Positions 8,195-27,433 of a DNA stretch of 64,000 nucleotides are shown here, piece after piece. The position numbers were made by a program, and so were the translations under genes. Every line of letters begins with the position of its first letter. The stretch's first letter is position 1. The DNA comes from Halobacterium sp. KA-4 (GTDB lineage Archaea; Halobacteriota; Halobacteria; Halobacteriales; Halobacteriaceae). The DNA lies in the NCBI RefSeq assembly GCF_021028995.1, contig NZ_JAJJZG010000013.1:1-64000 (forward strand), written 5' to 3'. The notes under the pieces were generated by a model, which worked only from the letters and a program-made list of their open reading frames with translations, was not told the origin of the DNA and did not search any database.

Positions 8195-8223
8195 TTATGA
8201 TAGGCTGGAACGATTGTCAACGT

Positions 8224-9528
8224 ATGGGTGAAGAAGCCACGAAGACGATTCAGACGCGCCTTCACGTAGCGTCTGGTGAACGGTCGTGGCTTCACGACGC
8301 CCGCCTTGCCGCACGCGAAATTTTCAACGACACCATCCGCCTCACACAACACGGGTACACGCGTACCGAGATCCAGCGGGAGGTTGACCGCGACGACTTC
8401 CTTCGCAACAACAAGTGCGCGGTTGTCGGCAAAGCCCTCCAAACATGGGACTCCTACCAGTCACTCAAAGAGTGGTGGGAGAACCAAGATGATCCTGATG
8501 GCGGCAAGCCGACGCCGCCGAGTACGGACAAATCGGGTGCGTATCCGCTCGTGATGGCGCATACGGAAGGCTATCGCCTCACCGTGGACGACGGCACAGA
8601 CCGCGTCCAGTTCCGAATCAGCCCGAAACCCTACAAGAAGGTCACAGGCCACCTGCGCGGTGAGCCGGACGCGATGGACGAACTTCGTGACGCTCTCACG
8701 TCGGATGAGGTGGATGTGGGGCAGGCCGAACTCCTGTACCGAGATGGCGTGTACTCCCTACACGTCACGGTTACACGCGAGTTCGACGTGCCCGAACCCA
8801 ACACCGCCGAGACAGTGGTCGGCGTGGACATCAACGAGCGCAACGTGGCTCTCACTGCCCTCGACCGTGAGACGATGCGGACGAAGGGCACGCTCGTCCT
8901 CGATTATGGGCGAGTCAAGCAGGAACGCCAACGCTACCACACGATCACGAAACGCTGTCAGGAACACGGGAAGACGAGCATCCACCACAGACTCGGTGAC
9001 AAGGAAGATCGATTTACCGAGTGGGTGTTGCATCGGCTTTCCCGTGCTGTCGTGGAGTTCGCAGCACAGTTCTCGGATCCGGTTATCGTGTTCGAGGACA
9101 TGGAGGGGATCCGCGAGGAAATCAAGTACGGGACGTATATGAACCGCCGGTTGCACAAACTGCCGTTCCACAAGTTCGAGAAATTTGTCTCGTATAAGGC
9201 GACGTGGCGGGAACTTCCGACAGATACGGTGGACGCGTACTACAACTCGAAGACGTGTTCGTGCTGTGGTGAGCGTGGGGATCGGCAGGGGCGGCGGTTC
9301 CGGTGTCCGAACGACGAGTGTGGCGTGGTGCAGGATCACGCTGACCGGAATGCGTCAGTGAATATCGCGTGGCGCGAGACGGCGAAACTCGACGGTAACG
9401 AATCGAATTACCGGACTCACAAAACCCAGCCGCAGGTGCGGTTGGTGCGTCTGTCCGGGTCGGGGCGTGTAAGCCGCCCACCCTCATCCCGCTCGCTTGC
9501 CGAGCAGGGAGTGCTAACCCACGGCTGA
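8224..9528 (+). CDS. tnpB: TnpB, IS200/IS605-family RNA-guided nuclease, partner of the broken tnpA
   Basis: This TnpB of about 434 residues starts from the ATG of MGEEATKTIQTRL; an upstream ATG at 8197 would add nine residues. RuvC motifs are complete: Asp in VVGVDINERN, Glu in VIVFEDMEGI and Asp in DHADRNASVNIAW, with a zinc ribbon CSCC...CPNDEC. The N-terminal domain belongs to the same subfamily as the fragment at 16000-16605 (IFNDTIRLTQHGYT and VNEIFRLDDEGHAW). It is divergent from the disrupted tnpA. The sequence after the stop (9529-9566) would carry the 3' end of its guide RNA. Confidence 0.93.
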   Translation: MGEEATKTIQTRLHVASGERSWLHDARLAAREIFNDTIRLTQHGYTRTEIQREVDRDDFLRNNKCAVVGKALQTWDSYQSLKEWWENQDDPDGGKPTPPSTDKSGAYPLVMAHTEGYRLTVDDGTDRVQFRISPKPYKKVTGHLRGEPDAMDELRDALTSDEVDVGQAELLYRDGVYSLHVTVTREFDVPEPNTAETVVGVDINERNVALTALDRETMRTKGTLVLDYGRVKQERQRYHTITKRCQEHGKTSIHHRLGDKEDRFTEWVLHRLSRAVVEFAAQFSDPVIVFEDMEGIREEIKYGTYMNRRLHKLPFHKFEKFVSYKATWRELPTDTVDAYYNSKTCSCCGERGDRQGRRFRCPNDECGVVQDHADRNASVNIAWRETAKLDGNESNYRTHKTQPQVRLVRLSGSGRVSRPPSSRSLAEQGVLTHG

Positions 9529-13267: not shown

Positions 13268-13408
13268 CTAAATATTCTTCATCCATCCAATCTCATTAGG
13301 CTGCTTTTCGAATCCTTCAGTCTCCAAAATATGTTCCATAGCTGGATGCGTGGCGTTATTTATACGCGGAGCAAGCGCAATACCACGGTAGTTCACGGCG
13401 ATATCCAT
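13268..13408 (-). CDS. 46-residue small protein (hypothetical)
   Basis: The frame MDIAVNYRGIALAPRINNAT, ending EGFEKQPNEIGWMKNI, has protein-like composition. An AT-rich TATA-like element lies about 30 bases above the ATG (around 13436-13445), giving a leaderless start. It is divergent from module B. It could also be the remnant end of a longer gene. Confidence 0.4.
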   Translation of the reverse strand: MDIAVNYRGIALAPRINNATHPAMEHILETEGFEKQPNEIGWMKNI

Positions 13409-13487
13409 GATTCGCCGCAGCCGGAGTAGTGGAATTATATCTAATCTAGTCCAAAGATATACGATACTGTGGGTGTTACGGGTATCT

Positions 13488-14033
13488 ATGACTGACGAAC
13501 AGCCCGACGTCTGGAGTGATGATCTGGACAGTGAGGATCGTGTTCGAAGGGTTGCAGACACGCTGACGCAGCCACGGAGTGCGTCCTGGGTTGCCGATCA
13601 AGCAGCGGTCAACTACAAGACTGCACGCAAATACCTCGAAAAGCTCGTCAGTGACGCCCGCCTCCAGACGACCGAGCGCGACCAGACGACACTGTATTAT
13701 CCAAATCCCCGGACGGAGTTCTTCGACGAACTCGATGAGCTGGTCAGCCAGTACACCAAAGACGAACTCACCGCGGAACTATCCGCGATGAGCGACCGGA
13801 TCGAAGACTGGCAAACGACCTACGATGTCGCGGACCCCGACGAGCTACGAACGACTATTGACGAGTCGTTGAGCGTCGCCGAGCGCCGCGAACGCGAGCA
13901 CGTCATCGATGACTGGGAGTACACCCAGCAGATGCGAATGTTGGTGCGGCACGCCATCCGCCTCTACGACGACCTCCAGCAGTTCACCGCGACGAACTCC
14001 CCGCAGCGAGCACAAGCCGCTGGGGACGAGTAG
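13488..14033 (+). CDS. Winged-helix regulator of module B (DUF7342-like)
   Basis: This 181-residue protein starts MTDEQPDVWSDDLDSEDRVR. The winged helix spans about residues 15-75 (LTQPRSASWVADQAAVNYKT, ARKYLEKLV, then LYYPNPRTEFF). A coiled, acidic C-terminal part follows (AMSDRIEDWQTTYDV, DDWEYTQQMRMLVRHAI). It is closely related to the regulator of module C (LTQPRSVQWV, NYQRRYF, RLLKHALELYDD). The next gene starts two bases after the stop. Promoter-like AT sequence (around 13436-13465) lies just upstream. Confidence 0.8.
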   Translation: MTDEQPDVWSDDLDSEDRVRRVADTLTQPRSASWVADQAAVNYKTARKYLEKLVSDARLQTTERDQTTLYYPNPRTEFFDELDELVSQYTKDELTAELSAMSDRIEDWQTTYDVADPDELRTTIDESLSVAERREREHVIDDWEYTQQMRMLVRHAIRLYDDLQQFTATNSPQRAQAAGDE

Positions 14034-14035
14034 CG

Positions 14036-14575
14036 ATGGCCGGCGACGAGTGGCCGGTCGCCTTCGATAGTGGGAGTCCACGAACCCGGAAAGGCATTCT
14101 CCGCCAGCTGAACGACCGCCTGAAACGGGAACCCGGCATCGAGTACACGCGCTTCGAACCCGGGACGATTGCCCCAACCGAACTCCGTGCCGCCGTGGAG
14201 CCGCCCCAACTCCTCGGGATGGAATACCCCGCACCAGTTGCCACACTGTCGATTCGATGGTCGCCACGACCTTCCGGGAACGACCACTTCGCTATCCAGT
14301 GGTTCGAGCGACCAGAGCAAGAGCGGACACCCTCTTCCGACGACGGCCGTAATTCGATACTTCCGGAGGGGTATACGGTGAGTTGTGGCTGGCATCAAGA
14401 CGACCACTGCAACGAACTTGGCGAGGCACACTTCCAGGAAGAATATCCGGCTGGGCGAACCGAACGGTACGGGGTGTCGTTCGGTGACCAGCATCCAGTG
14501 TGGGTTCTCAGTACGTGTCTGGCTGCACTGCCGGATCGACTCACTAGCTTTCGAGATCGTCTCAACACCCAGTAG
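14036..14575 (+). CDS. Partner protein of module B
   Basis: This 179-residue protein has LSIRWSPRP, HFAIQWFERPE, VSCGWHQDDHCNELGEAHFQ and QHPVWVLSTCLAALPDRL. The GWHQDDxxxxLGxxHFQxxY block is shared with the partner of module C. It aligns in position with the RWDRHPxxHNTRxHFH block of modules A and D, so all four appear to be one superfamily in two subfamilies. Three conserved polar residues (W, H, D) and a second His suggest an active site. The order is regulator first, partner second. Confidence 0.68.
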   Translation: MAGDEWPVAFDSGSPRTRKGILRQLNDRLKREPGIEYTRFEPGTIAPTELRAAVEPPQLLGMEYPAPVATLSIRWSPRPSGNDHFAIQWFERPEQERTPSSDDGRNSILPEGYTVSCGWHQDDHCNELGEAHFQEEYPAGRTERYGVSFGDQHPVWVLSTCLAALPDRLTSFRDRLNTQ

Positions 14576-14665: not shown

Positions 14666-15178
14666 TCAGTCGTTAGTGATCGCGTGGTTTGGGACTGTGG
14701 GGTGGTCGTGTTCCCATATGAGTTCGTTGAGGATTGGGATGAGCTGGTTGAGGCGGTGTTCATAGACGTTGAGTGGGTGTGCGTCGAGGAATTCTGCGGA
14801 GGTTCGCTGTACGGTTTCGTTCTGGTAATCGATCTGGAAGTGGCAGTTTCCAAGATCCATGTGTGTGTCGTCTTGGTGCCATCCGAGCATGAGGTTGCGG
14901 TCCGGTTCTACCCACTGGATTTCGTAGAAGTCATAGTCTCGGTTTGGTGGGAAATCAAATGAGACGTGGAGTTCAACTTCAGTAACCGGGTGGGTGGTTC
15001 CAAGAAATGATTGCGTGTCGACGAGTGCTCGAACGCCGGCTTTGTTCCCTGATGACGTGTGATATCGGACTTGCTTGATTGGCGTGTCATCTCCAGCGGC
15101 TTGTGTCTGCAGATGCGTGTGGATTCGAGTGAGAAGCGTTCGCTTGTCGAGGTTCGCTCGGTTTGCAAGAAAGATCAT
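14666..15178 (-). CDS. Partner protein of module C
   Basis: This 170-residue protein starts MIFLANRANLDKRTLLTRIH. It has VELHVSFDFPPNRDYDFYEI, QWVEPDRNLMLGWHQDDTHM, DLGNCHFQIDY and AHPLNVYEHRLNQLIPILNE. It is a homologue of the module B partner. The two genes converge with about 90 bases between their stops, so read-through of one would give antisense to the other. Confidence 0.68.
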   Translation of the reverse strand: MIFLANRANLDKRTLLTRIHTHLQTQAAGDDTPIKQVRYHTSSGNKAGVRALVDTQSFLGTTHPVTEVELHVSFDFPPNRDYDFYEIQWVEPDRNLMLGWHQDDTHMDLGNCHFQIDYQNETVQRTSAEFLDAHPLNVYEHRLNQLIPILNELIWEHDHPTVPNHAITND

Positions 15179-15187
15179 GGAGGCGTG

Positions 15188-15745
15188 CTACTGGGAGAGT
15201 GAGAGCGAGGAATTCGACGAATCAGTCTGGCTGGGGTATAGCGACCGGGCATCGTCGTACAGTTCAAGGGCGTGTTTGAGTAGTCGCTTGTTGTCCTCGT
15301 AGTGCTCCCATTGGCGAAGAATCGTATTCCGGGTGCGAATTTCCTCCCCAGAGAGGTCGGGGTTGGTGAGTGTGGATTCGAGATCGTTCTGTGAGGCAAC
15401 GTCGAATCTGGTTTTCCACTCGTCGATTTGCTCTTGGATGCTGGCGATTTCTTCGCGGAGTTCTGGCTGGGTGTGGTTGTTAATCAAATCGGTGACTTCG
15501 CTGAAGTAGCGGCGTTGATAGTTCGGCGCGTACTTCGGATTCCCATCATCACCCTCAATCACGTGTATTTGCCCAAATTCGACGAGCATCTCCAGTTCGT
15601 CTTTGGCGGTCTGCCACGAGGAGATCTGGGCTTCGTCTTTCACCCACTGCACCGACCGTGGTTGTGTCAGCGTTGTCGCAATTTCCCGAACTCGCTCACG
15701 AGCCGACAATCCCTCCGTCCACGATTCAAGCCCATGATCAGTCAT
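15188..15745 (-). CDS. Winged-helix regulator of module C (DUF7342-like)
   Basis: This 185-residue protein starts MTDHGLESWTEGLSARERVR; an ATG two codons upstream also exists. The winged helix is at LTQPRSVQWVKDEAQISSW and TAKDELEMLVEFGQIHVIEG, with the YAPNYQRRYF element after the wing. The C-terminal helices (IQEQIDEWKTRFDV, RQWEHYEDNKRLLKHALEL) match module B. The partner starts ten bases downstream. The upstream region (15750-15790) is AT-rich and would carry the promoter. Confidence 0.8.
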   Translation of the reverse strand: MTDHGLESWTEGLSARERVREIATTLTQPRSVQWVKDEAQISSWQTAKDELEMLVEFGQIHVIEGDDGNPKYAPNYQRRYFSEVTDLINNHTQPELREEIASIQEQIDEWKTRFDVASQNDLESTLTNPDLSGEEIRTRNTILRQWEHYEDNKRLLKHALELYDDARSLYPSQTDSSNSSLSLSQ

Positions 15746-15799
15746 ACACACTACTACCCCACTCAGTCTATTATATCTTTGGACCGCCCACTCAAATAC

Positions 15800-16794: not shown

Positions 16795-18045
16795 ATGGCG
16801 ATTGAGGTCACGCGCACCTACGTTGGTTCCATTCAGAACCACCGGCAGGTCTGCGATGGCCTCGATTCGCTCGGAGACTCCGCTTCCAAAATATGGAACG
16901 TCGCACGATGGACAGCCGACCGAATCTGGAACGCAACAGGCGAAATCCCAGATGAGGGTCCGCTCAAATCGTACATGAAGAACCAAGCGTGCTGGAAAGA
17001 CTTGAACGCACAATCCAGTCAGAAAGTCATCGAAGAACTTTCCGACGCTTTCCAGTCATGGTTCGATCTGCGGCACAAGTTTGACGAGGCGAATCCGCCC
17101 GGCTACCGCAAACACGGCGACACCCGGCCACGTTCTACAGTAACGTTCAAAGAAGACGGCTTCAAACACGACCCAGAGAACAACCGCGTCCGACTCAGCA
17201 AAGGCTCAAACCTCAAAGACCACTTCTCAGACTTCCTGCTCTGTGAGTACCAGACTCGCCCTGACGTTGACCTCTCAGAAGTCAACTCGGTGCAGAACAT
17301 TCGAGCGGTCTGGAACGGTGACGAGTGGGAACTCCACTTTGTCTGCAAAGTCGAACTCGAAACCAACGACTCGGCAGGTGACGAAGTTGCTGGCGTCGAC
17401 CTTGGCATCAAAAACATCGCCACGGTCGCGTTCCCCGATGAGTACGTCCTGTACCCCGGGAACTCGCTCAAGCAGGACAAGCACTACCTCACGCGAGCCG
17501 AGTACGATACTGAGGGTGAGAACGGGCCGTCCGAGAAGTCGATGTGGGCACGGCGAAAACTCGCTGACCGCGAGACGCACTTCTACCACACGCTGACAGA
17601 CGCCATCATCACGGAGTGTGTTGAGCGCGGTGTTGGAACGCTCGCGGTGAGTTGGCCCGAAGACGTGCGAGAATCCGACTGGGGCAAGACCGGCAATAAG
17701 AAGTTGCACTCGTGGGCGTTCGACCGCCTCTACCAGTATCTCGACTACAAAGGCGAGATACGTGGCGTCGAGGTACTGAAAGAGAACGAGTGGAACACCT
17801 CGAAGACGTGTTCACGGTGTGGTGACGACACGAAGTCGAACCGCAAGCACCGTGGGTTGTACGTTTGTTCGTCGTGTGGGTTAGTCGGGAACGCGGATTG
17901 TAATGGGGCGGAGAATATGCGTCAGAAGATAACTCCGAGTCCTCACGGTGAGGATAGGAGTAACGGCTGTGTGGCACAGCCCTCGACACAGTTGTTCGAC
18001 CGCGACAGCGGGACGTTCAAACCGAGAGAACAAGTCGTGTTGTAG
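16795..18045 (+). CDS. tnpB: TnpB, IS200/IS605-family RNA-guided nuclease
   Basis: This complete 416-residue TnpB has Asp in AGVDLGIKNIA, Glu in the altered motif AVSWPEDVRES (usually GDLEGVRE; the Glu itself is kept), Asp in NADCNGAENM, and a zinc ribbon CSRC...CSSC. It is of the same subfamily as the gene at 736-2049: both carry EIPD near residue 50 and NPPGYRK near residue 100, and both end in an FxPxxQV tail. No tnpA is adjacent. A complete right end follows, so this copy is the best candidate for a working TnpB-omega-RNA unit in the island. Confidence 0.95.
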   Translation: MAIEVTRTYVGSIQNHRQVCDGLDSLGDSASKIWNVARWTADRIWNATGEIPDEGPLKSYMKNQACWKDLNAQSSQKVIEELSDAFQSWFDLRHKFDEANPPGYRKHGDTRPRSTVTFKEDGFKHDPENNRVRLSKGSNLKDHFSDFLLCEYQTRPDVDLSEVNSVQNIRAVWNGDEWELHFVCKVELETNDSAGDEVAGVDLGIKNIATVAFPDEYVLYPGNSLKQDKHYLTRAEYDTEGENGPSEKSMWARRKLADRETHFYHTLTDAIITECVERGVGTLAVSWPEDVRESDWGKTGNKKLHSWAFDRLYQYLDYKGEIRGVEVLKENEWNTSKTCSRCGDDTKSNRKHRGLYVCSSCGLVGNADCNGAENMRQKITPSPHGEDRSNGCVAQPSTQLFDRDSGTFKPREQVVL

Positions 18046-18175: not shown

Positions 18176-19588
18176 TCAACGAGTAGAGTACGGTGGGTCA
18201 TCTGTGAGTGCGTTTACGATGTCTGTGGTGGTGTAGAGGGTGAGGTTGTCGCGTTGAGTGGCTGCTTCTTTGACTGATGGTTTGAAGCCGTTTCGGGAGA
18301 AGAGTGCGTATTCGATGACGCGGTCGCTTCCATTTTGTGGTGACCAGCGAAGTTCAGCAGCGTGGTCCTCGAGGTTCGAGAGTGCGTCGTATCCGAGTGG
18401 TGACTGTTGGAATTTGGCCTCGCCGACAAGCAGCGTCTCACCGGCGGTCAGGCCAACAACGTCGATTTCATGTTCACCATACCACCATTGGCCTGTGTTC
18501 GTAATTGTGTACTCGGGGTAGAGGGTGCGAAGGGCCGAACAGCAAAGCATTTCGAAGGAGTGACTGACGAAATCAGCGAGTTCCGGTTCGATTAGTGCAT
18601 CGTAGGCCTCAGCGCCCAGTTCGTCGTACTGCTCGCCAGTTCCATACACGAAGTGGAACCAGAACCGGAAGAACGGGTCACGAATGCGGTATCGGCTGCG
18701 TTTGCTGTGTTGTTTTTGTTCTGTGATGGGGACGTGTTGGTCGACGAGTCGGAGTCGGGACAGTCGGTTGAGGTATTTTGAGAGTTGGTTGTAGTCGATT
18801 CCTGTTGTCCCGGCGATTTCATTGCGGCTGGTGTTCCCGCCGGCAATTGCCTCAAGAATCGAGAAGTATCGGGTCGGTTCGGTGAGTTCCATGCGGAGGA
18901 CATAGTCAGGCTCGTTGTGGAGTGTTCCATGCCGGGAGAGGATTGTCTGCTGGATGTTGGCTGCGAGTGTTGCATCAGGGGAGACTTCTTCGAGGTAGTA
19001 TGGAACGCCCCCGAATACACCCCAGGTGAGGATCTGTTCGTCTGGAGTGTAGGTGTCATCGAAGAACTCTATTGCGGCGTCGAAGGGGAGTTGTCTGACA
19101 TCGAGTTTTAGTGATGAGCGACCGTAGAGTGGGCTGTTCCCGAGTAATGCCGCGTCTTCCATCATACTGATTGAGGAGCCGACGAGTACGAACGTTGCAG
19201 CTGAATTGTCGAGTTCGTGGTCGAACAGTGCCTGTAACACGGAGGGGAGGCTTTCGGTTTGCTCGATGAGATACGGGAATTCGTCAAGGACGATAATCGC
19301 ATCTTGGTCAGCGAGATAGCCGAGAATTTCATCCCAGTCTTCCCGGATTCGTCGAACGCCAGGATACGTTTCTGCGGCTGTGTCGATGAACTGCTGGAGC
19401 TGCAGCGCGCTCGTTTTTTGTTTTGCCTGGTAGACGATGGCGTCGTCGTATTCGTTCAAGGATTCTTTGACGAGCGCGGTTTTCCCGAGGCGTCGACGGC
19501 CATAGATCACTGCAAGTTCGGCATCGGCTGAGTCGTAGAGTTCGTGCAGTCGGTCGAGTTCTGCCGTCCGATCCACGAAGTCGGGCAT
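18176..19588 (-). CDS. Archaeal AAA ATPase with DUF234-type C-terminus
   Basis: This protein of about 470 residues starts at MPDFVDRTAELDRLHELYDS; the longer frame to 19654 adds unlikely residues. Walker A is GRRRLGKTAL, Walker B is AIIVLDEFPYL, and a sensor-like VLVGSSISMMED follows. A winged helix comes next (ISRN-type region TSRNEIAGTTGIDYNQLSKY). The DUF234 nuclease-like domain at the end includes GEHEIDVVGL and LLVGEAKF, a PD-(D/E)XK-like D...ExK pattern. Such ATPases are widespread in archaea, often in mobile or defence-rich regions, with unknown role. The AT-rich promoter lies at 19600-19650. Confidence 0.9.
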   Translation of the reverse strand: MPDFVDRTAELDRLHELYDSADAELAVIYGRRRLGKTALVKESLNEYDDAIVYQAKQKTSALQLQQFIDTAAETYPGVRRIREDWDEILGYLADQDAIIVLDEFPYLIEQTESLPSVLQALFDHELDNSAATFVLVGSSISMMEDAALLGNSPLYGRSSLKLDVRQLPFDAAIEFFDDTYTPDEQILTWGVFGGVPYYLEEVSPDATLAANIQQTILSRHGTLHNEPDYVLRMELTEPTRYFSILEAIAGGNTSRNEIAGTTGIDYNQLSKYLNRLSRLRLVDQHVPITEQKQHSKRSRYRIRDPFFRFWFHFVYGTGEQYDELGAEAYDALIEPELADFVSHSFEMLCCSALRTLYPEYTITNTGQWWYGEHEIDVVGLTAGETLLVGEAKFQQSPLGYDALSNLEDHAAELRWSPQNGSDRVIEYALFSRNGFKPSVKEAATQRDNLTLYTTTDIVNALTDDPPYSTR

Positions 19589-19701
19589 ACAACCGATACC
19601 GTAGGCCAGAATATAATATCTTCGATAATCGTACTTCAGAGTATGATACTTCAAAGTATTATTCTTGCTGGACGTCTGCTGGAATACACAGCTTGGGCTA
19701 G

Positions 19702-19796: not shown

Positions 19797-20234
19797 TTAT
19801 TCCCAGTGGTCGGTAAGCCGTTGTTCGATGGCGTCGAGGACGGTTGAGTACACATCGAGTGGGTGTTGGGAAGGGAGCGAAAGGTCGGTGATGTCGTTGC
19901 TGTCTGGGGGGTGGTGGAAGTGGATTCGTGTATTGTGGGTGTTGGGGTGGCGGTCCCATCGGCACTCCCAGTGGGTGGTGTCTGAGTTGGCTTCGAGATA
20001 GTGAAAGGAGAAATCACCGGTGGTGAACCAGCGCACGTCCAGTCGGGCGGTAGTCGTCGATGCTGGGTAGCGGGCTGTGTCGAGGTGTGCGTGGAGGAGT
20101 CGTGGTTCGTGGGGCGTTGGGTCGAAGGTAGTGGTCTCAACGAGTGGATCGGATGCGAGGTGTCGTTCGAGGAGGCGAAGGGTTTGACGGTCGGGCGGGC
20201 CGGTTGATGCTGGGGAGTCCGATGGCGGACCCAT
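19797..20234 (-). CDS. Partner protein of module D (TumE-like, putative toxin)
   Basis: This 145-residue protein has ARLDVRWFTTGDFSFHYLEA, ECRWDRHPNTHNTRIHFHHP and a C-terminal helix DVYSTVLDAIEQRLTDHWE. It is the closest relative in the window of the module A partner (10736-11182). Its start overlaps the stop of the regulator by one base plus (TAATG at 20232-20236). Assignment as a toxin rests on the gene order and the TumE-like His/Asp/Trp block, not on any known homologue named here. Confidence 0.7.
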   Translation of the reverse strand: MGPPSDSPASTGPPDRQTLRLLERHLASDPLVETTTFDPTPHEPRLLHAHLDTARYPASTTTARLDVRWFTTGDFSFHYLEANSDTTHWECRWDRHPNTHNTRIHFHHPPDSNDITDLSLPSQHPLDVYSTVLDAIEQRLTDHWE

Positions 20235-20767
20235 TAGGCGGGGATGAGGTGGCCGTCGTTTTGGGCGAGTTGGCGGGCGAGTTCGTAGAGTCGAATATCG
20301 CGGGTGGTGGCCTGCCAGTCGCTTACCGCTTCCATGCGCTCGTGTACTGCATCATGGTCGTCTACCTCGAAGACTGTGACAGACGCTGGGTCAGTCGTTT
20401 CGAAGCGCTGCTCGTAGGCGTCTCGTTGGGCTTCAAGGTCGGCGACGCGGTCAATAATCTCATCAACCGTGAGTTCGTGGGCGATACGGCGGGCTTCCTG
20501 CCATTCGAGGTAGCCGTCATCGCGTTCGTAGCGCGTTGGCCGGCTCTGTTCGTCCTTGTGGACAACGCCCATCTCAGCGAGCCGGTCAAGGTGTTTTTTG
20601 GCGGTGTTCGCCGAGCAGTCTGCTCGATCCGCAATATCACCATACGGCGTCGGTGTGGTGATGCCAAGGATGACGTCGTAGACGCGGTCGAAGGTGTCCG
20701 TTTCAGCCATCCACCGTTTCCGGGCGCCATTACTGTCGTTCTGGGGCGCTGGGTCAAAACCGCTCAT
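20234..20767 (-). CDS. Winged-helix regulator of module D
   Basis: This 177-residue protein begins MSGFDPAPQNDSNGARKRWM; a second ATG at 20710 (MAETDTFDRVYDVILG) may be the true start. The winged helix (DIADRADCSANTAKKHLDRL, AEMGVVHKDE, TRYERDDGYLEWQEARR) is followed by a coiled region and SDWQATTRDIRLYELARQLA. It shares the DxxWQ helix with modules A-C. It is translationally coupled to the partner gene. Confidence 0.8.
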   Translation of the reverse strand: MSGFDPAPQNDSNGARKRWMAETDTFDRVYDVILGITTPTPYGDIADRADCSANTAKKHLDRLAEMGVVHKDEQSRPTRYERDDGYLEWQEARRIAHELTVDEIIDRVADLEAQRDAYEQRFETTDPASVTVFEVDDHDAVHERMEAVSDWQATTRDIRLYELARQLAQNDGHLIPA

Positions 20768-21021: not shown

Positions 21022-21394
21022 TCATACCTGCTCTTGTGGGGCGACTCTCCCCGTCGATTTATCGAACAGGCGCACCAATGGCTGGGCCAGACAGCCGGTA
21101 CTCCTATCCCGTGAGGGACTCGGAGTTACCGTCGCTCGCATATTCTCCGCCGCGTTCAGGTCGCTGTTAGCGACCAGCTCGCAGTTCTCACAGACGTACA
21201 ACCCACGTTCAACACGGTTTGCATCCGCTTTCATCCCGCACTCACAACACGTTATTGACGTGGCTAACTCGTACTCGTCAACCCGTTCGACGTCAATCCC
21301 GCGCTCTTCGGCCTTGTACTCGATTTGCTGAATCAGAATGCCAAACGCCCAATCGTGCAGACGTTTGTTTCCGTGTCTCCCCCAGTCTTCATAG
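21022..21394 (-). pseudogene. tnpB: tnpB C-terminal fragment
   Basis: An open frame from about 21394 reads YEDWGRHGNKRLHDWAFGIL, the helix after the missing Glu motif, then ITCCECGMKADANRVERGLY, VCENCELVANSDLNAAENM and DRSTGCLAQPLVRLFDKSTG. This is the last third of a TnpB of the 736/16795 subfamily, with the zinc ribbon and final Asp. The N-terminal two-thirds are replaced by another element's end at 21408. Confidence 0.85.
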
Positions 21395-21520: not shown

Positions 21521-22750
21521 ATGGAGAAGCGGCGTACTGTCCCTGTGAAACTCGACGTGGACAGCCATAGCGCCGCACTCCTCGAAGACACCATAGACGA
21601 GTTCCTCTGGGCTGCCAACTACGTGACACGCCACGCTTTCGACGGCGAATACGTCACCACCAGCAAGACCACGCTCCACGACGAAACGTACGACGACGTG
21701 CGCGAGGAAACACCGTTACACAGCAATCACGTCCAAGCCGCCCGCAACAAGGCCGCTGACGCCGCCAAAAGCATCCTCGCAAAGTGGAAGCAAGGCAAGA
21801 AGGCGTCGATGCCTCACTTCACTAGCCCACATCTCGTCTACGACCACCGCACTGCGACCTTCCACGACGACTACGTGTCGCTGGCAACCGTTAACGGTCG
21901 CATCGAAGCCGACTACGTGCTTCCATCCGAGGAGCGAGAGACGCCCCACGCTGAATACTTCTTCTCCGACGAGTATGAGACAACTGGGGCAGAACTACAT
22001 TACACGAACGACAACTGGATGCTTCACATCCACTGCAAAACGGACGTGGAGTCTGACACGCCGGAACAGGAAACCACCGAGAACGGAACGGTTCTCGGGG
22101 TTGACCTCGGCGTGACCAATCTTGCCGTTGCTTCAACTGGGACGTTCTGGACTGGCGACGAGTTCGACCACTGGCGCCGCGAATACGAGACCCGGCGTGG
22201 TGACTTCCAGGAACACGGCACACGGTGGGCACACCAGAACATCCAATCTGTCGGTCGGAAAGAGACCGGTCGATTCAAACTCACACTCCACCGCATCAGT
22301 AACGAACTCGTCGCAGAAGCCCGTGAAAACGAGTGCTCAGTAATCGCGTTTGAAAACCTGACCGACATTCGTGAGCGTACTGGCGCGTCATGGGGCCACA
22401 AGTGGGCGTTCAACCGCCTCTACGACTACGTCGAATACAAAGCCGAAGAGTACGGTATTGACGTCGAGCAGGTTGCCCCGGAGAACACGAGTCGGCGGTG
22501 CTCAACGTGTGGGTTCACGCACCCGGACAACCGTGAGAGTGAATCGTTCGAGTGTCTGAAGTGTGGCTACGAGAATCACGCCGACTACAACGCCGCCAAG
22601 AACATCGGTTTGCGGTATCTCCGCCGGACCCAAACTGGCGCCGGTGGAGGCGCACCCGTAGGCGTGCGCTTGAACAGCGGGACGCTGAACGCGAACGGAG
22701 CGTATGAACCTCCTGCCGACAGTGTCGGCCAGAGCGCGAGTCCACGCTGA
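21521..22750 (+). CDS. tnpB: TnpB, IS200/IS605-family RNA-guided nuclease (second subfamily)
   Basis: This complete 409-residue TnpB starts at ATG with [20 protein letters not shown]. Catalytic motifs are Asp in [12 protein letters not shown], Glu in [12 protein letters not shown] and Asp in [11 protein letters not shown], with a zinc ribbon CSTC...CLKC. Its N-terminus and the YNAAKNIG block set it apart from the other intact copies, making a third TnpB type in the island. No tnpA is adjacent. The upstream AT-rich sequence (21485-21520) would hold the promoter. Confidence 0.95.
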
Positions 22751-23023: not shown

Positions 23024-23231
23024 ATTGTCCAGACAATCGTCTAGGCGGGAATTCCCGCCTATACTAGTTGTTAATTTCGGGGATTCTGTCTGGACAGCCG
23101 CGCCGTCTGGTGGTTCTGTCTGGACAGGCGTATACAGACAACCGCTGTCTGGACAGGACTGTCTGGACAAATACTGTATTCCGCGTTTCAAGCCCTGAAA
23201 CCCCAGAATAACCGCGGGACTGTCTGGACAG
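23024..23231. repeat. CTGTCTGGACAG iteron cluster
   Basis: Near-perfect palindromes CTGTCTGGACAG lie at 23086, 23116, 23145, 23159 (ending in A) and 23220. A variant ATTGTCCAGACAAT lies at 23024, and a perfect 16-bp palindrome GGCGGGAATTCCCGCC at 23044-23059. Start-to-start steps of 30, 29, 14 and 61 bases put several copies on nearly the same helix face. The block lies just past the 3' end of the HerA/VirD4-like gene. Candidate roles are a partition or transfer site, a plasmid origin or a repressor operator array. Confidence 0.8.
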
Positions 23232-23265: not shown

Positions 23266-26200
23266 TTAGCCGTTGTTGGTTTGGCCGGTGTTGGTGAAGG
23301 TGAGGTCCTCAAAGACGTGGATGCGTTCGCCATCAACCCGCGGCCTTGCAATCTCGAAGTCAATTGTTTGGCGTAATTTGCGAGTGAACCATCGCTTCGA
23401 GAGTTCCTCGATGTCGTGGTGGTCTGTCCAGGCCCGGTAGGCCTGATAGAGCTCATCTCGTGGCAGCCGTGCATCCTTGCTGTTCGTGAGATGCAGGTCG
23501 GCGAATGTTTCGATACCACCCTCACTGGAGTCGACATCTGCTGTTGCAATCGCACCGGTTTGAATCGTCGATGCCGGTGCGTGATTGTGAGGTTCCTTGG
23601 GTGTCTGCTTGTTGGGAGTTGAAGCCGATTCACCTAGTCCAGTAAGCGGGTTCGTATCGGCGGGGGACGTTGGGAGTGGGTGGACGTGCCCGTCAGTGTA
23701 GCGTTTTGGTTGCCCTCCTTGCGGGAGGATGAGGATGTGGTAGCTGTCGCGGTCGTAGTTTGGCGTAGGGAGGTTGACGGCAGGGATGAATGGGCGTTTG
23801 ATTGGCGTCCACTCTTCTCGGAGCCGTGCTTCTGATTGGTCGACGTTGGTGTTGCCGGGGGTGTAGACGGTGTATTGGGCTGTTTCTTGGTCGTAGCTGT
23901 AGTACGCTGGGAGGCTGTCTTTCGAAATTGGGGCGTTGGCTGGCAGGCTGGCGAACTCGGTGTCGCCGTCCGACAGCTCCCACTCATCGTCTCGGCGAAT
24001 CCATACCGTCTGCTTGGAATCTGTCTTCGGGCGAAGGCCGGTGACACCACCGTCGATTGTGGCGCCGCCATTGAACGTGAGGGGTTCGTCGGAGTTGTAG
24101 AAGCGCTCGGACCCATCAGACATTTGCCGGACTGGGGGTGATAGAATCGATTCAACACGACTGGCATACTGGGTTTCGGATTCTTCTCCGGGCCGAACCA
24201 CAAACAGCGGTGTTCGATCCGATTCTTGTGCACGCGCCAGGTTCGTGAGCACTTTTGACGGACGCCGATACGTCGTTGTTTCAGCTTCAATGCTATAGAC
24301 CGTCTCCTCATTCGGATGGATGGCTGTGGCGTCGGGTTGCTCGCTGCCGTCTTGCTCGCGGATGTCGACACTGAATCCACGTGTTGTGAGTGCGGCTTCG
24401 GTATCGAACAGCAGGTTGTCGTGGGCGTCACCGCCCGCCGATGCAATGTCTCCTGTCGTGGGTTTTGCTGCGGTTTCGCCGGTGTCGGTGAGCTGTACCA
24501 CTGGGTTGCCAGCCACGGTGTCGACCACAAATCGCGTGGAGTTCGCGCGTAGCTCCGGGAGGTCCACGTCATCGTAGTCGAGGTCGTGTTGGATGAGGGA
24601 GTGGCGGCGTGCGAGTTCCGCATCGACGGCCTTGGTGGTCACCCAGTCGTTGTCCAGTCGTGAGTCTTCGCGGAGTTGGACGGCTCGAACGGCAGCCGCC
24701 AACTCTGCAGTCACCTCTGAATGAAGCGCTGTCTGCCCGGTTGTATCCGAGAAGACGAGTTGTTCGTGGATCTCGACGTCCGATAATTGTGGTGTGCCGT
24801 GTTCTGCGAGACTGGCGTCGATGATGGTATCGATGGCTTCAGTTGTCCGGAGTGGTGGGTAGGGTGGGAAGGTGTTGATGCGGACGGGATTGGAATAGCT
24901 CTGATCTTCGCGGGGGAGTTTCGTCCAGAGCTGGTAGCGCCCCGTCCCTAGCAAGTCTTCGGCGCTGTACTCTTGGAAGCGTTCCATGAGGATGCGCGCG
25001 TCACTCTTGGCGTTGACGGAGAATGCGAGGGTGGTATCGCAGTTGTTCCGCACTGCATCCTGCGTCGAGGAATCCAACTGGGAGGGATACTGGCAGGACA
25101 GCGTCACGGAGAGCCGATTGGAGCGTGCTCTGGCGAGCATCCCCTCGAGGTCGAGGTTTGGACTTGCAATATCGTCGAATTCGTCGCAGAACAGGAAGTA
25201 GGGGTCTGGCTGGCCGTCTTGACTTCTTGCGCGTTGGCGGACGGCCGTCCAGAGTTGCCGCATCACACCCAGCGAGATCATCTGCTTAACTGAGGAATTC
25301 TCGATTGGCGTGCGGACGATGACAATCCGGTCGTTGTCAATAATGTCTCGGAAGTCAATCGTACTCTGTTTGTGCGCGATGATCTGGCGGATCACTGGGC
25401 TCTCCACCCACGCCTTCAACCGCTTCAATAGTGGCCGAATCGTCTTATCCGGCATTGCGGCGATCTCTTCGCAGAATTCCCTGAGGTAGCGGTCTTCAAC
25501 GGTCTCAGCGAAGTCCTCGCGGCGGTCGGCTTCGAGGAGGATATAGTACATGTCGATGAGCGAGTACTGGGTGTCCGACTGTAGCATCGCTCGGGCCATC
25601 GATTCGGTGATCGATTCCATGTTGATTCCCCAGTACTCGCCATTACTCAGGACGGCTTTCAGCGTCTCAATCCGCGTCTCAATCTCTTCTTCCCGGCTGA
25701 CAGCGGAGTCACCACTGGGTATGTCGAGGAAGTTCAACCCGACTGTGTCTTCTCTGTCGAGGTTCCCGGGTTCGACCCAAACCACGTCATCCAGGCGGTC
25801 CTCGGGGAGTTTTCGCAGGAGGTCGCGGGAGTCTTGGCCTTTCGGGTCGACGTAGACGAAGCCATGTCCCTCATTCGCGAGTTGGGTCATGCTATTGACC
25901 AGCATCGTGGATTTCCCGTAGCCGGTGGTGCCGCTCACCCAGAGGTGCCGGAACAATGAATTGAATGGCAGCCCTGCCTCCACAAACCCACGATGCGGGT
26001 CTTTCTGGTAGCCCAGCCAGAGTGACTGTGGTCCAGCCCCGGGGGTTACTTCGAACATCATTCGGATGTCCGCTCCGGCAACAACGCCTTCGTCAAGCGT
26101 CTCCGCCTGCACCTCGATATCACCGACTGACTCCGTACTTGTCTCGGTGATTGAATACGGGTGCTCGTTATTGCCGGTTGGGGTCTCTGGTTGCTGTTCA

Positions 26201-26319
26201 GGCTCATTTGCGTGTGATTTGTCCTGCGGATCGCTGGTCGCCTGATTGGTGCGTGATTCGTCACCGCCGCTGGATGCACCGCGGTTGAAAATCCCGTTAA
26301 ACACTGTCGTAGCCTCCAT
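23266..26319 (-). CDS. HerA/VirD4-like (TraG/VirB4-type) DNA-pumping ATPase
   Basis: This protein of about 1017 residues starts at MEATTVFNGIFNRGASSGGD; the frame is open upstream, but those residues overlap the preceding gene and look wrong. Walker A is VSGTTGYGKSTMLVNSM, Walker B is PYFLFCDEFDDIASP, and the arginine-finger/QTS-like block is LSVTLSCQYPSQL. The ATPase core fills the first 550 residues. The rest is a haloarchaeal extension with coiled and nuclease-like patches and a C-terminal LHLTNSKDARLPRDELYQAY wHTH-like end. There is no membrane segment, unlike canonical VirD4. It overlaps the upstream partner by 23 bases. The likely task is DNA translocation for plasmid or virus transfer, or for maintenance. 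Confidence 0.85.
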   Translation of the reverse strand: MEATTVFNGIFNRGASSGGDESRTNQATSDPQDKSHANEPEQQPETPTGNNEHPYSITETSTESVGDIEVQAETLDEGVVAGADIRMMFEVTPGAGPQSLWLGYQKDPHRGFVEAGLPFNSLFRHLWVSGTTGYGKSTMLVNSMTQLANEGHGFVYVDPKGQDSRDLLRKLPEDRLDDVVWVEPGNLDREDTVGLNFLDIPSGDSAVSREEEIETRIETLKAVLSNGEYWGINMESITESMARAMLQSDTQYSLIDMYYILLEADRREDFAETVEDRYLREFCEEIAAMPDKTIRPLLKRLKAWVESPVIRQIIAHKQSTIDFRDIIDNDRIVIVRTPIENSSVKQMISLGVMRQLWTAVRQRARSQDGQPDPYFLFCDEFDDIASPNLDLEGMLARARSNRLSVTLSCQYPSQLDSSTQDAVRNNCDTTLAFSVNAKSDARILMERFQEYSAEDLLGTGRYQLWTKLPREDQSYSNPVRINTFPPYPPLRTTEAIDTIIDASLAEHGTPQLSDVEIHEQLVFSDTTGQTALHSEVTAELAAAVRAVQLREDSRLDNDWVTTKAVDAELARRHSLIQHDLDYDDVDLPELRANSTRFVVDTVAGNPVVQLTDTGETAAKPTTGDIASAGGDAHDNLLFDTEAALTTRGFSVDIREQDGSEQPDATAIHPNEETVYSIEAETTTYRRPSKVLTNLARAQESDRTPLFVVRPGEESETQYASRVESILSPPVRQMSDGSERFYNSDEPLTFNGGATIDGGVTGLRPKTDSKQTVWIRRDDEWELSDGDTEFASLPANAPISKDSLPAYYSYDQETAQYTVYTPGNTNVDQSEARLREEWTPIKRPFIPAVNLPTPNYDRDSYHILILPQGGQPKRYTDGHVHPLPTSPADTNPLTGLGESASTPNKQTPKEPHNHAPASTIQTGAIATADVDSSEGGIETFADLHLTNSKDARLPRDELYQAYRAWTDHHDIEELSKRWFTRKLRQTIDFEIARPRVDGERIHVFEDLTFTNTGQTNNG

Positions 26320-27433
26320 CAGTTGCAGCTGATTCACCACCGCGCTGGGTGCTGTCAGCAAAGTTGTACTGGGTCTCCGTGCCAGACACACGGTCGCTGT
26401 CTTCGGTTGTCTTCTGGTCGAGGTTCGGCGTCGGAACCTTTCCTTCCGGGAGGTGCGCAACCCCAGCCAATTCGTCGACGGTCAACACCGTTTGCTGGGG
26501 CGTGTACTGGCGGGTTGCCATTGCCTCAACGAACTCGCGAAGCCGAGCGACCGTGCCGTCGTCATCACGATGCCAGACTGGCGTTGCTTCCAAGCCCTGC
26601 TCGGAAATGCCGTTATACTGCGTTTCGAAGATATTTGCAACACCCCGCGTGCGGGCTACGGCGTCCCGCTTCGATGGCGAAATCGCCAACACTCGAATAG
26701 TGGTGTGGTAGGCGGGTTTGTCGCGTTCGTGTTCGAGGATCTTCGCTGCACGTTTGTCAGCGGCACTTGGTGGCCGCGTTCGCGGATTCAACCACCCGAC
26801 TGAGGTGCCTTGTCGGAGGCTGTTGGCGATGTCATCGATGCTGTCGCTGCGGAGGCGAGAGCCATTCGTCCACGAGGGTTTCGCGGGCCGGAACACGACT
26901 TGGGTGACGACGCGGGTATCCTCATCGCCGAGCATCTCACGGGTAAGTTCGCCGTATGGGTCGGTGTCGAAGCCCTCGTTCGTGTGGTCGCGAATCGGAT
27001 AATACGACCCGATATTCGTTGCGACGCGTGCGCCAGCGACGTACTCACCGGGCTTAATCTGGGGGAGGCCATGCCCAGTCTCAACGCGTTCGATGTCAGT
27101 ATTTGGGTAGTTGGTGGCGAGCCGGCGCCGGAGCGTGTCCGCAGCCGCCTCCGTCGGCGCATGCACGTAGAACTCCAGTTGCTCACCAGTGAACCACGTC
27201 TCAAAGGAGTACGAGTCGCTCTGGTTCGACCCCCAGAAGGATGTCTCGACGTCATGCAGACTCCGGTATATTCCGGCGGCATCCTGAACGCCAGCCGAAT
27301 GCGTGTGGGGCTGCACTCGCAATAGGACGCCCCAGGTGTCTTCGACAGCATACTCGAGAGGGTCGCCGGCGGTGATTTGGGCGGCGGTATAGGTTGGCGG
27401 GCCGAAGACGAGGCGATGAGCCTTATTCAGCAT
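26297..27433 (-). CDS. Upstream partner of the HerA/VirD4-like ATPase
   Basis: This 378-residue protein starts MLNKAHRLVFGPPTYTAAQI. It contains VLLRVQPHTHSAGVQDAAGI, EFYVHAPTEAAADTLRRRLA, PGEYVAGARVATNIGSYYPI and a C-terminal tail ending DSTQRGGESAATDGGYDSV. There are no Walker motifs. The pattern of paired alpha/beta repeats resembles the N-terminal, non-ATPase domains that in VirB4-type proteins are fused to the motor. This gene therefore probably supplies that part as a separate chain. It is translationally coupled to the ATPase. Confidence 0.78.
   Translation of the reverse strand: MLNKAHRLVFGPPTYTAAQITAGDPLEYAVEDTWGVLLRVQPHTHSAGVQDAAGIYRSLHDVETSFWGSNQSDSYSFETWFTGEQLEFYVHAPTEAAADTLRRRLATNYPNTDIERVETGHGLPQIKPGEYVAGARVATNIGSYYPIRDHTNEGFDTDPYGELTREMLGDEDTRVVTQVVFRPAKPSWTNGSRLRSDSIDDIANSLRQGTSVGWLNPRTRPPSAADKRAAKILEHERDKPAYHTTIRVLAISPSKRDAVARTRGVANIFETQYNGISEQGLEATPVWHRDDDGTVARLREFVEAMATRQYTPQQTVLTVDELAGVAHLPEGKVPTPNLDQKTTEDSDRVSGTETQYNFADSTQRGGESAATDGGYDSV

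Follow-up and report, generated by a model that had tools for sequence, protein, structure and literature searches.

Streptomyces TraB recognises DNA repeats through a C-terminal winged helix, and exchange of the recognition helix switches its specificity. TraB is described as docking on 8-bp repeats in the clt locus and directing the transfer of double-stranded plasmid DNA (PMC12857230). Among Archaea, the conjugative plasmids pNOB8 and pT33-3 are described as having VirB4- and VirD4-like ATPases and no recognisable relaxase (PMC12857230, PMC9905601), and haloarchaeal fusexin-bearing integrated elements are reported to carry HerA, VirB4 and TraG/VirD4 genes (PMC9259645); the cited passages describe no transfer origin or motor recognition site for these elements. 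Here we analyse a 64,000-nucleotide stretch of Halobacterium sp. KA-4 (contig NZ_JAJJZG010000013.1, positions 1 to 64,000; hereafter the window), in which six short repeats, or iterons, lie just past a gene for a VirD4/TraG-type DNA-pumping ATPase. Covariation among related loci makes it very probable that the ATPase's own C-terminal winged helix-turn-helix (wHTH) domain reads this array. As with TraB and clt, element-specific short repeats adjoin the motor gene, and relatives carry class-specific arrays at the same place. TraB is an FtsK-like translocase of double-stranded DNA that works in the absence of any known partner from a type IV secretion system, whereas the present motor is VirD4/TraG-like, with VirB4 in the operon of relatives; the system here is also archaeal, its wHTH is of the RFX/D5 type, and its array is followed by a constant core and then by a PrimPol gene. 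Because of this motor and the VirB4 operon, the array would work like TraB/clt rather than be a TraB/clt system.

The array consists of six 10-bp TGTCCAGACA cores within 206 bp, and the rest of the 3.34-Mb genome holds two more. Thus, 6 of the 8 TGTCTGGACA sites in 3,336,915 bp fall in this segment (P ~5e-27 for six sites at the rate seen elsewhere in the genome), shuffled versions of which never contained more than one site per shuffle; chance is ruled out as the source of the cluster. Read on the forward strand, the exact 12-mer CTGTCTGGACAG starts at 23086, 23116, 23145 and 23220, and there are two variants, CTGTCTGGACAA at 23159 and an inverted TTGTCCAGACAA at 23025–23036. The 12-mer is a pseudo-palindrome, CTGTC-TG-GACAG, and the start-to-start spacings of the six copies are 61, 30, 29, 14 and 61. 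The initial annotation, made from the sequence alone, was right about six copies but took five rather than four to be exact, and it called them phased, although the spacings do not correspond to integral turns of the helix (14 bp, for instance, makes 1.3 turns). The palindrome it saw beside them is present and perfect, with a true length of 20 bp rather than 16. Its placement of the array directly beyond the 3′ end of the ATPase gene was accurate, as the stop codon lies at 23266–23268 on the minus strand, 35 bp from the nearest copy. It also spoke of an ATPase pair, but the far side of the array carries an inserted TnpB element (21521–22750) and no second pump gene. On the minus strand, read 5′ to 3′, the order is a gene for a 378-residue protein, the ATPase gene, 35 bp, the iterons, the core, the palindrome and the inverted copy. 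The elements of the array are:

23220..23231, minus strand: iteron CTGTCCAGACAG, written in the sense of the ATPase gene
23159..23170, minus strand: iteron variant TTGTCCAGACAG, written in the same sense
23145..23156, minus strand: iteron CTGTCCAGACAG
23116..23127, minus strand: iteron CTGTCCAGACAG, 30 bp ahead of the next copy, as in relatives
23086..23097, minus strand: iteron CTGTCCAGACAG, the copy closest to the core motif
23059..23072, minus strand: core motif AACAACTAGTATAG, the counterpart of CCAACTAGTATA(G/C)A, which ~90 of 100 relatives have
23042..23061, no strand: perfect 20-bp palindrome TAGGCGGGAATTCCCGCCTA, positioned like the post-core dyad of relatives (for example, AACGGGG-GGT-CCCCGTT)
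23025..23036, plus strand: inverted iteron variant TTGTCCAGACAA past the core; an inverted copy lies in the same zone of some relatives

Full-length homologues of the ATPase (~50% identity) occur in many genera of Halobacteria, and the regions downstream of them align with the window across the iteron zone and the core with few gaps (for example, TGTCCAGACAGAACCACCAGACGG...CTGTCCAGACAG...ACAACTAGTATA in the window against TGTCCGGGGTAAAAACCACCAGACGG...CTGTCCAGGGTA...CCAACTAGTATA in locus L086). A second, longer ATPase family (~1440–1565 residues), one member of which this genome encodes on its contig C3, has the same layout. The exact iteron pair of the window had no match in 390 other Halobacteria genomes, whereas an array of other sequence stands at the homologous place beside the ATPase family throughout Halobacteria. 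Both the link that the initial annotation drew between array and ATPase and its guess of a transfer origin gain support from this. The refutation it had proposed, no copy of the iteron near the ATPase genes of relatives, would mislead if applied literally, because the iteron sequence changes together with the wHTH.

A PrimPol match was found in 97 of 100 non-redundant wHTH-bearing loci, mostly 220–430 bp downstream and on the same strand; it lies at 1.8 kb in L107, is weak and distant in L146, and is missing from L135, L154 and the window. In most cases the two genes are separated by iterons of other sequence and then by CCAACTAGTATA, a constant core accompanied by a dyad. The core is present within three mismatches in ~90 of the 100 loci, where we estimate ~0.05 per locus by chance, and the post-core dyad exceeds shuffled sequence (mean stem 5.1 versus 3.6). 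ATPase homologues without the wHTH (L022, L023, L091 and L092) have neither PrimPol nor iterons, and two PrimPol loci in which an insertion sequence replaced the ATPase have kept the dyad region and lost the array. The downstream PrimPol is a homologue of NrS-1 polymerase with its HBD (PDB match, E ~1e-40; PF22763, E 1.8e-31); both the AEP domain and the NrS-1 HBD are present in the neighbouring gene of relatives and absent beside the window array. The complement of the core, CTAGTTGGTTTT (for example, at L011:11412-11424), has the string TTGGTT in common with TTTGGTTA, the recognition site of NrS-1 polymerase (PMC8718748), and in the window, where PrimPol has been lost, this string is altered to TTGTTA. 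With the patterns tried, no relatives of the ATPase were found in viral contigs, where 14-bp core matches do occur.

The ATPase and its proposed reading domain are placed as follows, with residues numbered from codon 26457–26455 as residue 1; the true start is probably later than the TTG, near MEATTVFNGIF.

23266..26460, minus strand: open reading frame of the VirD4/TraG-type DNA-pumping ATPase, 1064 residues from the TTG, with Walker A GTTGYGKS and Walker B FCDEFDD
23269..23517, minus strand: C-terminal wHTH, residues 981–1063, the proposed iteron reader (Pox_D5, E 1.7e-6; RFX-like fold)
23365..23397, minus strand: recognition helix KRWFTRKLRQT, residues 1021–1031 (helix 63–73 of a 105-residue model)

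Pfam profiles matched the motor as T4SS-DNA_transf (E 6e-8), TrwB_AAD_bind (2e-5) and TraG-D_C (1e-4), and the VirD4/TraG motor domain scored above the Pfam cut-offs (T4SS-DNA_transf, 32.3 versus 20.1; TraG-D_C, 22.4 versus 22.0). The wHTH of the window is above the cut-off for Pox_D5 (28.8 versus 21.4) and below that for RFX_DNA_binding; across 42 homologues, the two profiles matched 35 and 13, respectively. A structure predicted for the C-terminal 105 residues had a predicted local distance difference test (pLDDT) score of 79 overall and ~90 across the fold, and its best matches among solved structures were RFX5 (8zjr, E 6e-5) and RFX1 (1dp7, E 1e-4); a full-length model, at pLDDT 53, was not used. 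The domain therefore qualifies, as a predicted fold, as a winged helix of the RFX/D5 type. The X-box bound by RFX proteins is given as GTNRCC-N0-3-RGYAAC, with GTTRCY as the monomer site (PMC10530576). An iteron of the second ATPase family, GTTACGGCAAC, resembles the X-box (a resemblance alone), whereas the window iteron is CTGTCCAGACAG, and the wHTH differs from RFX domains in its 16–20% sequence identity and its protein context.

Next, we asked which protein the iterons follow, using 70 loci; the window, being without PrimPol, was left out. Given the ATPase body and PrimPol, wHTH identity had a rank partial correlation with iteron distance of -0.43 (permutation p 0.002), against +0.02 for PrimPol (p 0.66) and -0.05 for the ATPase body; split further, the values were -0.34 for the recognition segment and -0.27 for the remainder of the wHTH. 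By mutual information, none of the best 14 columns per half-site came from PrimPol (320 of the 939 columns tested), and nine and seven lay in the wHTH, including the recognition helix and the wing. The same iteron was shared by 111 of 114 pairs with at least 80% wHTH identity and by 20 of 34 pairs with at least 88% PrimPol identity. PrimPol was rejected as the iteron reader, by the covariation and by pairs with 88–98% identical PrimPols but differing iterons; the pair L056 and L089 entered with its protein identities.

At the level of single residues, positions 1022 and 1027 (R and K in the window) track the two iteron halves. Residue 1027 follows a conserved Arg and sets the left half: of the 17 loci with R at this position, 16 have TAC; the 51 with K all have CCA, TCA, TCC or CCG; and the two with S both have TCA. 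The iterons fall into classes (TGTCCACGCAG, TGTTCAGGGCA, TGTTCAGGGTA, TGTCCAGGGTA, TGTCCGGGGTA, TGTCCAACCAG, TGTTACGGCAA, GTTACGACAG, TGTCCAGGCAA, TGTTCCACCCA and CGGTCAGGGGA), each of which, when lined up with the ATPase C terminus, has its own recognition-helix signature. The signatures and the iteron parts that go with them are:

KGWFTRKL: CGCAG
ASWFGRKL: GGGCA
xVWFxRKL: GGGTA
KSWFxRRL: TTACGGCAA
KRWFTRRL: TTACGACAG
KSWFTRKL: TTCCACCCA
KAWFSRSL: GGTCAGGGG

The left-out window fits this correspondence. Its closest wHTHs (46% identity) have G at position 1022 and the iteron TGTCCACGCAG, and the only other loci with R1022 are L129, L132 and L137, which have GACAG as the right half and wHTHs 24–32% identical to that of the window. 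K1027 predicts TGTYCA, so that K1027 with R1022 gives TGTYCA plus GACAG, that is TGTCCAGACAG, the iteron of the window. This agreement is suggestive rather than conclusive, as it concerns a single locus and CA is common to the right halves of several classes. In a further set of 19 wHTH loci, some of them close to training loci, ~16 carry the array expected from the helix; L318 and L320, both truncated, have lost the array, and L317 matched only in part. L159 (NZ_CP100458.1, ~28.5–29.0 kb) represents a further class, with the helix KSSFSKRL, repeats resembling TGTCTAGGGT and PrimPol at a greater distance. Short open reading frames consisting of little more than the wHTH (L320, 109 residues; L321, 101 residues; L323; L325) still stand ahead of an array or core, and may be either remnants or stand-alone readers.

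Comparison of closely related elements revealed that the wHTH and the iterons have been swapped together, as a cassette, between elements that are otherwise ~95% identical. L095 and L117 are 90–98% identical in DNA sequence up to ~500 bp before the ATPase stop, 27–52% identical over the linker, wHTH and array, and 80–100% identical from the core through PrimPol. L103 and L116 likewise have DNA 90–98% identical up to about the same point, wHTHs and iterons only ~25–50% identical, and 80–100% identity thereafter; the return occurs at position +326, where the core starts at +327. L075 and L086 and, less sharply, L058 and L067 have the same pattern. Movement is very recent for elements of the C3 type, because the ATPase C-terminal parts and PrimPol of the C3 element (L095, G000 C3:35187-41436) are 100% identical in L112, L114 and L119 (genomes G221, G343 and G024), which together with the genome of the window span three haloarchaeal families. 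Plasmid pNATPE01 (NC_019967.1) carries two cassettes, L158 and L160, with arrays TGTTCAGGGCAA beside ASWFG and TGTTCAGGGTAA beside AVWFS. A strict incompatibility rule, by which co-resident elements would need different iterons, is not supported, as the same class coexists in G375 (L062 and L065) and in G162 (L053 and L061).

Exchange of this kind bears on who reads the array. The wHTH and the array are contiguous and move together, so cassette exchange alone could tie them by linkage, and the reader could then be another protein, such as a host factor or a DUF7342 wHTH protein, the gene for which lies downstream in L011 and also occurs in the window. We consider this quite improbable: most arrays have no DUF7342 relative beside them, loci without the wHTH are also without the array, the best wHTH columns include the recognition helix and wing, and R1022 is again accompanied by similar right halves where the wHTHs have diverged deeply. 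This residue-level correspondence is the sole argument for direct reading over mere linkage, and it holds only in part (several half-sites occur with S before W); the loci are moreover related by descent, with an effective number of ~25. Reading by the C-terminal wHTH nonetheless accounts best for the covariation, and we hold it with high confidence in place of the unnamed plasmid protein suggested initially.

The complete plasmids NZ_CP100458.1, NZ_CP101874.1 and NZ_CP135526.1 place the cassette in a transfer context. On each, it closes a transfer operon of VirB4, the 378-residue protein and VirD4, with genes for ArdC-like single-stranded-DNA-binding proteins further on, and an Orc1/Cdc6 initiator is encoded away from it. 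No relaxase is annotated on the three plasmids, although a new kind of relaxase could be missed, and 111 of 113 plasmids with a homologue of the window ATPase are typed as non-mobilizable (PLSDB/MOB-suite). A centromere-like partition site, the other function proposed initially, would suit clustered inverted repeats beside a motor gene; it is highly improbable, as the ATPase is of the VirD4 type and not a ParA, the iteron sequence follows this transfer ATPase, and ParA is encoded far from the array on both plasmids where it is annotated, with none found beside the array.

A vegetative replication origin was our first reading, and it was set back because Orc1/Cdc6 genes were found on complete plasmids (a fourth plasmid has one near a PrimPol). 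Here the wHTH would bind the iterons as an initiator or helicase loader and PrimPol would start at the core, forming a split replicase of the P4/D5/NrS-1 type (PrimPol, helicase and wHTH). Iterons with an adjacent dyad form an origin-like layout, the neighbouring gene encodes an NrS-1 polymerase homologue with its HBD, the core complement shares its TTGGTT with the NrS-1 site, and the Pox_D5 wHTH family is found on replicative helicases; the tail of African swine fever virus C962R likewise resembles the P4 origin-binding domain and RFX1 (PMC10516667). The locus has an AEP PrimPol with an NrS-1-type HBD and a D5-type wHTH ending a P-loop motor, as do NrS-1 polymerase, pRN1 ORF904 and the P4/D5 replicases, but it lacks an SF3 helicase, and its wHTH sits on a separate, VirD4-like ATPase. 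Compared with iteron-type plasmid origins, it shares the clustered direct repeats and dyad but not a Rep of known iteron type, the presumed reader being a transfer motor; nor does the sole or main initiator adjoin the array, Orc1/Cdc6 being separate on the three complete plasmids. The cassette is joined to a transfer operon, its motor is of the coupling-protein type, pNATPE01 has two cassettes with different iterons, and GC skew gave no clear signal, its amplitude being too small. An origin of replication is therefore possible but unlikely.

The array could instead be an operator that controls PrimPol and the transfer operon, with the ATPase wHTH acting as an autoregulator and CTAGTATA as a promoter element. 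In favour of this, PrimPol is the next gene downstream of the array, a TATA-like string in the core precedes the PrimPol start by ~70–130 bp, and RFX proteins are transcription factors. Against this stand the four to six sites with fixed spacing over ~200 bp, the dyad, a core more constant than usual promoters, and the oddity of a transfer motor as repressor, and we regard the operator as improbable.

We propose that the array is the recognition array of a transfer-initiation locus in a haloarchaeal conjugative-like element and functions like the clt locus. In brief, several copies of the VirD4-like ATPase would attach to the array by their C-terminal winged helices, which are of the RFX/D5 type, docking the pump on its own DNA beside the constant core (CCAACTAGTATA plus dyad). 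The DNA would be opened or processed at the core, and PrimPol from the next gene would prime or complete strand synthesis during transfer; the core may be processed by PrimPol, act as a promoter, or do both. We consider it likely, by analogy, that the array serves transfer and not replication or regulation, and the docking scheme as a whole we hold with moderate confidence. Several points weigh against it. The likeness to TraB/clt and the transfer role are both analogies, a PrimPol neighbour and wHTHs of a type found on replicative helicases would suit replication equally, the core could be the PrimPol promoter, and the element in the window has neither PrimPol nor VirB4.

The copy in the window is probably an integrated chromosomal remnant, because the window has a chromosome-like right half (CetZ, a transporter permease, a PALP enzyme and a tRNA-Arg); the ATPase and array of this copy are intact, and PrimPol and VirB4 are missing locally. 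No trace of PrimPol was found beside the window array, and the only PrimPol of the genome sits on contig C3. The genes that flank the ATPase and array are:

26297..27433, minus strand: gene for the 378-residue protein upstream of the ATPase, with no Pfam match, syntenic in relatives and 50% identical to L011:7025-8158
21521..22750, plus strand: TnpB gene of the IS200/IS605 type (Cas12f1-like_TNB, E 5e-23), at the place of PrimPol in relatives

The left third of the window contains four such TnpB genes in all (736–2049, minus; 8197–9528, plus; 16795–18045, plus; and 21521–22750, plus), as well as a C-terminal TnpB fragment (21022–21234, minus). A two-gene unit, consisting of a DUF7342 winged-helix protein and a partner of ~145–180 residues, occurs in three copies (13407–14575, plus; 14666–15751, minus; and 19797–20767, minus) and also downstream of PrimPol in L011; it is possibly a toxin–antitoxin-like or regulatory pair. 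An archaeal ATPase gene of the ATPase_2/DUF234 type (18176–19654, minus) adjoins the element.

How relaxase-less archaeal elements choose and move their DNA is treated as an open question in the cited accounts (PMC9905601, PMC12857230), and the present proposal names a site, a reader and an exchange of specificity. With the chances about evenly balanced, the locus would represent a defined transfer origin for relaxase-less archaeal conjugation, in which a VirD4-like coupling ATPase picks its DNA through an RFX/D5-type wHTH that reads the adjacent iterons. Specificity would then reside in a cassette of wHTH and array, open to exchange between elements and with a residue-to-base correspondence that can be read in part, and next to it would lie a constant site at which PrimPol starts. 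The array and core may then be adopted as a bioinformatic marker of the transfer module in plasmids that are now typed as non-mobilizable.
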